NCBI GenBank assembly: GCA_028282685.1
Contig: JANQHK010000003.1
Coordinates: 1 to 32,462 of the forward strand
Length of the DNA stretch: 32,462 bases
Direction of reading: 5' to 3'
Source: Phycisphaeraceae bacterium
GTDB lineage: Bacteria; Planctomycetota; Phycisphaerae; Phycisphaerales; Zrk34
This document shows, piece by piece, positions 5,757 through 18,133 of the stretch. A program made the translations under genes and the position numbers. How positions within the stretch are numbered: position 1 is the stretch's first letter; each line of letters begins with the position of its first letter. Below the pieces are notes generated by a model. That model worked only from the letters and a program-made list of their open reading frames with translations, did not search any database and had not been told where the DNA came from.

Positions 5757-7265
5757 ATGCTCTACCGCACACTTACCGTGGCCATGATCGTTGTTATCGG
5801 ATCAACGGGCATGGCATGGGCCGAATCGGAAACCGCTGCGCTGAGAGATGAAGTGCAGCAACTGAAAGACCTGGTCCAGCGCCAGCAGGTACAGATCGCC
5901 GATCTGCAGTCGGCACAGAATCAAACGTGGATGACGGAAGCTCGCGCCGAGCAGGTCAAGACGCTGATCCGCGAAGTGCTGGCCGACGCCGAGATGCGCG
6001 CCTCGCTGTTGGACCAGGACCTGACCGCCGGATGGAACGAGAACTTCTTTCTGGCCAGCGCCGATGGCAAGTTCCTGCTCAAGTTGTCCGGTCTGATTCA
6101 GGTCCGTTACATCTACAACTACTTCGATGACGTGGATGAAGGCGACGACTACGACAACAGCGAGGGCGGTTTCCAGAACCGTCGCAGCCGGATTCGGTTG
6201 GAAGGTCACGTCGGCGCTCCGAATATCCGCTATGCGATCCAGCACAACTTCATTTTTGAAGAAAACAACAACGACGGCAACATCAACGGCCCGGGCACCG
6301 AAGACGACACTTCCGGTTTTGGTTTTCTGGAAGAGGCGTGGATCGCTTACGACTTCGACAACGGCTGGTCGCTTCAGGCCGGTCAATTCAAGGGCCCCTT
6401 TGCTCGCGAAGAGTTGGTCGACGCCGGCTACCAGTTGACCGTCGAGCGCAGCTACGTGACCGATTACTTCACGCTCGATTTCGTCCAGGGCGTTCAGCTT
6501 TTCTGGGCCGGCGAACTGGGAGAATATCCGACGCACTTCGCGGTGATGATCCATGACGGGTCGTACTCTTCCGCGATCAACTGGAACCAGGAATTGACGG
6601 ATATCGCAATCGCCGCCCGTGGCGAAATGTTGCTGATCGGCAACGACTGGGCCCAGACACGCGACTTCACCACGTTCAGCAACCAGAGCGAGTTGCTGCT
6701 GGTCGGAGCGGCCATTGACTGGCAGCTTTCCGAATCCGGCGAAGGCGCCAACGAACAAGACGATGCGGCGCACGTCAAGTTCACCCTGGACTTGTCCTAC
6801 GAGCGGCCCGATTGGCAGAACTTCAACTTCTTCGTGGCCTATTACGGACAATACATCTACGAAAACACCGATTTCGAGCACTTCGATTCCAGTTTAGACG
6901 ACAGTTATTACCAGCAGGGTGTGGTGGTGCAGGCCGGTGTCCACGTCGTCCCGGACAAGTGGGAAGTCTTCGCCCGTTACGAGTATTTCGATACCGATGG
7001 CGTGATCTACTACCAGAGTCCCGAAGACTCCGCCGACCGAACCTTTTTCACGCTCAGTGACGACGATGACCAGGAGTACAACATCGTCACTTTGGGTGTG
7101 AACTACTTCATTCAACGTCACCGGACCAAGGCCACGCTTGACTTCATGTACGTGCTCGACCAGGTCGCTGAGGCCAACACCGGGGCGGGCATTGAGGACT
7201 ACCAGAACGACGATGGCGATGCGAGCCAATTCGTCATCCGCGCCCAGCTTCAGTTGCTGTTCTGA
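5757..7265 (+). CDS. OprP/OprO-like outer-membrane porin with N-terminal coiled coil
   Basis: A 502-residue outer-membrane porin of the phosphate-selective porin O/P superfamily. Residues 1-22 are a signal peptide (ending GMAWA). Residues 24-50 form a heptad-like coiled coil (LRDEVQQLKDLVQRQQ) that may trimerise or touch the cell wall. From about residue 95 the protein alternates short aromatic beta strands, starting FLLKLSGLIQVRYIYNYF, to the terminal strand FVIRAQLQLLF, whose final Phe is the usual outer-membrane assembly signal. Acidic loops (DDVDEGDDYD, DDDDQEY) argue against assuming phosphate selectivity. Start ATG 5757 has GGGAGG five bases upstream. The gene is flanked by terminators and is probably a single-gene unit. 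Confidence 0.88.
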   Translation: MLYRTLTVAMIVVIGSTGMAWAESETAALRDEVQQLKDLVQRQQVQIADLQSAQNQTWMTEARAEQVKTLIREVLADAEMRASLLDQDLTAGWNENFFLASADGKFLLKLSGLIQVRYIYNYFDDVDEGDDYDNSEGGFQNRRSRIRLEGHVGAPNIRYAIQHNFIFEENNNDGNINGPGTEDDTSGFGFLEEAWIAYDFDNGWSLQAGQFKGPFAREELVDAGYQLTVERSYVTDYFTLDFVQGVQLFWAGELGEYPTHFAVMIHDGSYSSAINWNQELTDIAIAARGEMLLIGNDWAQTRDFTTFSNQSELLLVGAAIDWQLSESGEGANEQDDAAHVKFTLDLSYERPDWQNFNFFVAYYGQYIYENTDFEHFDSSLDDSYYQQGVVVQAGVHVVPDKWEVFARYEYFDTDGVIYYQSPEDSADRTFFTLSDDDDQEYNIVTLGVNYFIQRHRTKATLDFMYVLDQVAEANTGAGIEDYQNDDGDASQFVIRAQLQLLF

Positions 7266-7328: not shown

Positions 7329-7347
7329 TTTGCGCGTGTGTGAGAAG

Positions 7348-7398
7348 TGAAAAAACGAGCCGCGACTGTGAAGGAGCGCCCGTCAGGAAGCGGCTCGT
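7348..7398 (-). terminator. minus-strand terminator built from a dispersed repeat
   Basis: ACGAGCCGC (7355-7363) and GCGGCTCGT (7390-7398) form a perfect 9-bp stem with a 26-nt loop. On the minus strand the stem is followed by a run of T (A run at 7349-7354), so it would end the exonuclease-family gene that stops at 7447. Its sequence is also a copy of the repeat found at 17821 and 18005. Confidence 0.65.
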
Positions 7399-7446
7399 AT
7401 AAGAACTCTTCTCGCACACTTTCTTAGGCGTGCGGGCGCTCGGCGG

Positions 7447-17349: not shown

Positions 17350-17790
17350 ATGTCGTCTCCTTCCTCCGATCACGATTCCGAACGTTACGATCAGTCGATC
17401 CGGACGTTCGCCAGCCACGCCGCCCGCCTGATTTCCGACAACAAGTTTGAGAACGTGATCGTGCTGGACTTGCGCGGCGTCAGCCAAGTGACGGATTTCT
17501 TCGTGATCGGTACCGGCGCCAGCGACCGCCAGAACGCTTCGGTGGCCGACGAGGTGAAACTGCTGGGCGAATTGGAGGGACAACCGCTGTTTCGCGCCAG
17601 CGGTTACGACAATCCGGAATGGATGCTGCTGGACTTCGTGGATACGGTGGTGCACCTGTTTTTGCCGCACCTGCGCGGCTATTACGACCTGGAATCGCTG
17701 TGGGGCGACGCTCCGCGGGTGGAGTGGGCGGCGCAGACGCGCCCGGGCCAGTTCGCGAAATTGTCGGCCTCGCGTCGTTCGGCTGGCTAG
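17350..17790 (+). CDS. rsfS: ribosome silencing factor RsfS (YbeB/Iojap family)
   Basis: 146 residues. RsfS binds uL14 and blocks subunit joining when nutrients are scarce. Family blocks are KFENVIVLDLRGVSQVTDFF, VIGTGASDRQNASVADEV and WMLLDFVDTVVHLFLP, then YYDLESLWGDAP. ATG 17350 is chosen; the frame opens at 17281 inside rpsU, but the extra residues are not family-like. The stop TAG (17788-17790) lies inside the left inverted repeat of the element at 17785-18065. If that element were absent, the frame would run nine more sense codons after the common SA codons to a TAA at 18100. The core fold ends before the junction, so the protein should still work. Confidence 0.94.
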   Translation: MSSPSSDHDSERYDQSIRTFASHAARLISDNKFENVIVLDLRGVSQVTDFFVIGTGASDRQNASVADEVKLLGELEGQPLFRASGYDNPEWMLLDFVDTVVHLFLPHLRGYYDLESLWGDAPRVEWAAQTRPGQFAKLSASRRSAG

Positions 17791-18065
17791 AGCATCTTGA
17801 GTCATTCATGCCGGGCTTGAACGAGCCGCGCCCGTGTGGAAGCGGTCCGCACAACGCCCGAACCCGGCGGGGCAGGTGCGGTCATTCGCCCGCGGGGCAC
17901 CCCATCTTCGCCCGAAGGGCAAGGTGGGTGGGTAGAAGATGCGACCCAGCCCACGTTGCGGAAGACCGCGAAAGTGGGGGCGCCCGGCGGATCAACGGCC
18001 CGACGACCGCTCCCTCACCGTCGCGGCTCGTTCGGATCGGACACAAACCATGCAAGACGCTCTAG
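17785..18065. mobile_element. MITE-like non-coding element inserted at the 3' end of rsfS
   Basis: About 281 bases without a credible gene. The ends are inverted: the 61-nt arms 17787-17847 and 18005-18065 match at 44 of 61 positions by hand alignment. The strongest parts are the outer 13 bases (12/13, CTAGAGC-TCTTG) and the inner 28 (24/28, ACGAGCCGCG...GAGCGGTC). The 7-bp direct repeat TTCGGCT flanks it at 17778-17784 and 18066-18072, a likely target-site duplication. The interior has further hairpins, such as CATCTTC/GAAGATG. It carries no transposase, so it would need one in trans. It could instead be a palindromic BIME-type repeat; the flanking duplication favours insertion. Confidence 0.65.
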
Positions 18066-18133
18066 TTCGGCTCGACCGACCGGCCCGGGAGCAGTAAAAT
18101 AACGCGAAAGACACCACTGCGGGGTTATTTGAA

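Follow-up and report, generated by a model that had tools for sequence, protein, structure and literature searches.

Between rsfS and panD, in the 32,462-nucleotide stretch of Phycisphaeraceae bacterium DNA analysed here (the window), lies a repeat with inverted arms that has the heptamer TTCGGCT on both sides (Table 1). The locus raises the question of where this element begins and ends, and of whether its arrival has altered the end of the upstream protein. A preliminary description regarded it as a MITE-like insertion of 281 bp which had duplicated TTCGGCT and rewritten the end of rsfS. The best explanation, held here with high confidence, is an IS630/Tc1-type MITE inserted in trans at a CTAG target on the rsfS stop codon and carrying a REPIN-like core. 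The observations behind it are the copy number, the ends, the TA-only junctions and an autonomous partner in a related genome.

Table 1. Coordinates of the features at the rsfS-panD locus and of a second element in the window
Feature	Positions	Strand	Basis
Second, smaller element: type B (IS5-like) ends around one fused REP palindrome, 98 bp	7329..7426	.	
rsfS, ribosomal silencing factor, PF02410; stop TAG at the element's left boundary	17350..17790	+	
TTCGGCT, left copy; flanking sequence, not TSD	17778..17784	+	
Putative non-autonomous IS630-type element (MITE), 277 bp, TA to TA	17788..18064	+	common boundaries of copies
Left TA target copy; with 17790 forms the rsfS stop TAG	17788..17789	.	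TA-only junctions in other copies
Left end cap, type A: TIR TAGAGCATCTTG and subterminal sequence	17788..17821	+	alignment of copies
Left REP-like palindrome CGAGCCGCGCCCGTGTGGAAGCGGTC	17822..17847	+	alignment of copies
Spacer between both REPs, long variant; short variant in other copies	17848..18004	.	copy comparison
Right REP-like palindrome CGAGCCGCGACGGTGAGGGAGCGGTC, inverted	18005..18030	-	alignment of copies
Right end cap, type A: TIR TAGAGCGTCTTG and subterminal sequence	18031..18064	-	alignment of copies
Right TA target copy, target context CTAG	18063..18064	.	TA-only junctions in other copies
TTCGGCT, right copy; flanking sequence, not TSD	18066..18072	+	
panD, aspartate decarboxylase, PF02261	18134..18532	+	

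The search for further copies, proposed in the preliminary description, yielded 54 matching stretches by BLAST in the same genome (2.94 Mb, 157 contigs), many of them cut by contig ends, as is usual for repeats in a draft. Homology between these copies starts and ends with TAGAGC, which places the element at 17788-18064 (277 bp) and not at 17785-18065 (281 bp); the GGC before the left TAGAGC and the G after the right end belong to the flanks. The base preceding the TAGAGC ends is mostly C or T. The 15-base TIR pattern TAGAGCRTCTTGCRT occurs 64 times in this genome at two or fewer mismatches (40 of them exact), against 17 occurrences for the reversed control. The imperfect 61-nt inverted arms described earlier are indeed present (17787-17847 and 18005-18065, 72% complementary). 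The element is thus multicopy and bounded by TIRs, and it has neither coding capacity nor a transposase gene. An exact pattern scan of the genome contigs for the long end of the element gave no match. A 277-nt transcript is predicted to fold as a single long hairpin (-144.3 kcal/mol, z = -5.3); such a structure might influence the rsfS-panD message. The sole match in a search of the element for structured RNA families was CrfA, sub-threshold and taken as chance. As side observations, two type A copies on different contigs (L012 and L046) both have the left flank GCGGTTGATCCTGATGGGC, meaning that the flank itself is repeated, and type A ends at L049 and L184 stand directly behind the terminator-like hairpins of the upstream gene.

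The complete chromosome G006, from the same family, contains an autonomous relative. It holds four copies of 1014/1015 bp (L083:1537-2551, L084, L085 and L087) with the same TIR, whose ends read TAGAGC.TCTTGCG and are flanked by TA only. Each element contains two overlapping ORFs; ORF1 matches HTH_Tnp_IS630 (PF01710), and ORF2 matches DDE_3 (PF13358, 5e-36) as well as the NCBIfam IS630 model NF033545 above its cut-off. A run of seven A (A7) lies at the overlap, where a frameshift is likely to fuse both ORFs. Enrichment of the type A TIR extends to G003, G048, G090, G087 and G097. Since the autonomous copies combine the same ends, TA-only flanks and an IS630 transposase, the element at rsfS is very likely an IS630-type MITE. 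A cognate transposase in the same genome is typical of a MITE, and is not required. In the 157-contig draft of the host genome, no IS630/DDE_3 transposase was found; the cognate gene may have been lost, or may be missing from this assembly.

The copies also define the target. In the other two-ended type A copies of the same genome, the flanks share TA alone, mostly in a Y-TA-R context, so that the two-ended copies and the four autonomous ones are consistent with a TA target and a TA-only duplication. No congeneric empty site was seen among the relatives or at 80 RsfS loci, and a second genome of the genus was not found. An IS5-type 4-bp YTAR duplication was considered for type A and rejected, as the outer bases at both ends of a copy disagree. 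The flanks of a 95-bp copy in C35 mirror each other, and this copy is probably an artefact of the contig end.

The heptamer favours a 281-bp element with a 7-bp duplication, whose own stop replaced the last rsfS codons. TTCGGCT does stand on both sides, an exact repeat near both ends that reaches 8 bp when a leading G is included, and the reading frame stays open after excision. Moreover, such a flanking repeat is unusual by chance at any one site and counts against the TA model: points 277 bp apart have a common 7-mer (8-mer) within 12 nt at 0.45% (0.10%) of window positions, and adjacent flanks at random positions in the window share a 7-mer in 0.7% and an 8-mer in 0.24% of cases. These figures apply to a repeat that was picked because it is conspicuous, and the two-ended copies number about ten. 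Against a 7-bp duplication, the heptamers lie at unequal distances from the element (3 nt at the left, 1 nt at the right), and the ends it implies, GGC at the left and G at the right, are not common to other copies. The comparison of copies gave no 7-bp duplication adjoining the conserved ends in any other copy, and the suggested search for TTCGGCT-like flank duplications turned up none in any other two-ended copy compared. Because those copies and the autonomous ones have TA-only junctions, TTCGGCT is best read as a repeat already present or as a chance repeat, and the 281-bp reading appears highly improbable.

The choice of boundary decides what happened to rsfS. The arithmetic given earlier is correct: excision with one heptamer joins rsfS in frame to a TAA at 18100-18102, and today's TAG lies at the left end. 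Under TA insertion, the predicted empty site reads ...TTCGGCTGG-CTAG-TTCGGCT..., and the sequence there at the end of rsfS would be ...TTCGGCTGGCTAGTTCGGCT...; this site already holds a TAG stop. As TAG exists in CTAG both before and after TA duplication, RsfS was very probably left unchanged by the insertion. Two indirect tests from sequence comparison, the length of the RsfS tail and the spacing to panD, agree with the TA model. After the conserved PGQF, RsfS has 11 residues now and 3-13 in six family relatives with the motif, whereas the longer ancestor of the preliminary description would have 19. The predicted empty site leaves 68 nt from the stop to panD under the TA model and 31 nt under the 7-bp alternative; family relatives with panD downstream have gaps of 62, 69, 83, 122 and 140 nt, the 69 nt being that of the closest relative (about 59% RsfS identity). 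The comparison of C-termini and spacers that had been recommended therefore favours the TA model, and with it the view that the end of rsfS was not rewritten. The empty site with a single TTCGGCT also appears wrong by these indirect tests and by copy comparison; a CTAG between two TTCGGCT would be expected.

The position on a stop codon recurs elsewhere. The 64 element ends examined, from this and related genomes, include several that fall on the stop of a long ORF. At least four copies have their boundary exactly at the stop codon of an identifiable gene. Three of these genes belong to the host genome: rsfS, one for an aldo/keto reductase (PF00248, 6e-52) and one for a STAS protein (PF01740, 2e-15). 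The fourth is in the relative G005, where an IS5-capped copy coincides with the TAA of an ORF that resembles an aldo/keto reductase but scores below the Pfam cut-off (PF00248, E 4e-4). Further long ORFs ending at an element boundary have no Pfam match or fall outside the Pfam scan. These coincidences are raw counts with no statistical background. They are probably survivors of TA/TNA targeting, neutral for the upstream gene, which persist because such targets overlap stop codons.

Inside the type A ends lies a second module. Two inverted palindromes, CGAGCCGCG(C/A)C(C/G)GTGAGG(A/G)AGCGGTC, are situated just inside the ends, so that the core has the composition of a REPIN/BIME: two similar, inverted REP palindromes with a spacer. 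Similar palindromes are present in many genomes of the order, singly, as inverted pairs or in tandem arrays (for example, with a period of about 84 bp in G035, L276 and L277, and of 39 bp in G020, L290), and they adjoin Y1_Tnp (RAYT-like) genes in G005, G008, G020 and G042. On account of these repeats across the order and the adjacent genes, the palindromes are considered REP-like and the pair REPIN-like. With regard to a tetranucleotide guide at the foot, REPs usually follow AA (TA in many left arms), and their first bases are CGAG; no GTAG guide was seen at the foot of REPs in the aligned copies and related genomes. The host genome has a RAYT-like gene of its own in C150 (L296; NF047646, 58.6 bits, below the cut-off of 80), and a truncated type A copy starts about 25 nt after its stop.

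These associations would also suit a REPIN placed by a RAYT as the true moving unit, with the TAGAGC arms merely hitch-hiking as flanks; REPs adjoin RAYTs in several relatives, and several genomes have REP pairs or arrays with no type A ends. Nevertheless, TAGAGC next to TA is the exact limit of homology between type A copies, and these ends also enclose an IS630 transposase gene. Furthermore, REP-less type A miniature elements exist, of 66 bp in the host genome (C146) and of 98-128 bp in G048, G087 and G090; the 66-bp copy may be either a progenitor or the result of a deletion. A RAYT-placed unit is therefore very unlikely, and the IS630-type element remains the preferred moving unit.

The core is not confined to type A ends. 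In the host genome it occurs with three kinds of ends, all joined at the same point, CGAGCCGCG: type A as at rsfS, type B (TNAGARNGTGTGTGAGAAG) and type C (TAGAGCATTCYYRATCCAA). An 855-bp element in G006 (L306:303-1157) has type B ends and a TAA/TAA duplication; it encodes an IS5-family transposase in two overlapping ORFs, one of which exceeds the NF033580 cut-off. Type B ends also enclose REP pairs, as 140-bp elements in G005 (matching TNA in 5 of 6) and as one element in G007 (TGA/TGA), and IS5-capped REP pairs are present in two related genera. Altogether, 8 of 11 two-ended type B copies have matching TNA and share their ends with the transposase-bearing element, which is the composition of IS5-type MITEs; only one of three clear cases in the host genome matches, and this counts against the best explanation. 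The 98-bp type B element of the window lies in the gap between two genes that converge on it, with ends at 7265 (+) and 7447 (-).

A few possible hybrids combine ends, A/C in C29 and C10 and A/B in C26 and C57 (L046, L185, L186 and L049); the joint in L049 is a single REP palindrome. The hybrids could be assembly errors, and the same doubt may be extended to all three end types, which would then be chimeras formed through the common core in a short-read draft, where many contigs terminate inside the core. Such a wholesale artefact is unlikely: A/A, B/B and C/C elements are embedded within contigs, between unique flanks, and type B ends around a REP pair recur in the independent genomes G005 and G007 with matching TNA duplications. 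An artefact could account for the hybrids alone.

Taken together, the preferred history of the locus would begin with an IS630-family transposase acting in trans and inserting the element at the TA of a CTAG target. That target would have overlapped the TAG stop of rsfS, and TA duplication would have kept the stop and hence the RsfS sequence. As cargo, the caps enclose two RAYT-type REP palindromes in an inverted, REPIN-like arrangement. This core also occurs with IS5-type ends and a third type of end, and is accordingly taken as a passenger that more than one transposon family has packaged. The broader proposal is about evenly balanced between true and false: one RAYT-type REPIN core packaged by at least two unrelated DDE families (IS630/TA and IS5/TNA) plus a third end type, with ends swapped via the core and REPs spread by several transposases rather than by RAYT alone.

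The rsfS case illustrates that a tempting flanking repeat can mislead, and that the boundary must come from copy comparison. Transposons with TA or TNA targets can occupy stop codons with no change of the protein, which would explain their persistence at gene ends. If the common core holds in long-read assemblies, REPINs and MITEs, usually treated apart, become linked; if true, the core offers REPs a route to spread without their RAYT. The insertion itself is ordinary in kind, and the modular core is the more unusual part. The literature searched, with partial coverage, described neither a REP pair enclosed by MITE ends nor one REP core packaged by two transposase families.

The Correia/NEMIS elements of Neisseria, which we take to be unrelated in sequence, offer one comparison. 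Like the rsfS element, they have TA termini, TIRs and long and short variants differing by an internal block, but they are without a REP core (PMC2229807). IS630 MITEs such as RUP, and REPINs, are already known (PMC2229807, PMC3116915). RUP of Streptococcus pneumoniae, a MITE of IS630-Spn1, is likewise short, non-autonomous, intergenic and present in many copies, with an IS630-like TIR and a TA target; unlike the rsfS element, whose interior is a REP pair common to IS5-type elements and whose cognate IS630 was not found in its own assembly, RUP measures 107 bp and has no reported functional motif (PMC2229807). The mosaic TIMEs of Pseudomonas are also mosaic and non-autonomous, but they are derived from Tn3, and their abstract mentions no REP core (PMC4133298). 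REPINs and BIMEs with RAYT share the two inverted REP palindromes with a spacer, the Y1 (RAYT) genes adjoining REPs in relatives and the location downstream of genes (PMC3116915, PMC6006769, PMC3733652); they differ in that the pair is enclosed here by DDE transposon ends with TA or TNA junctions.
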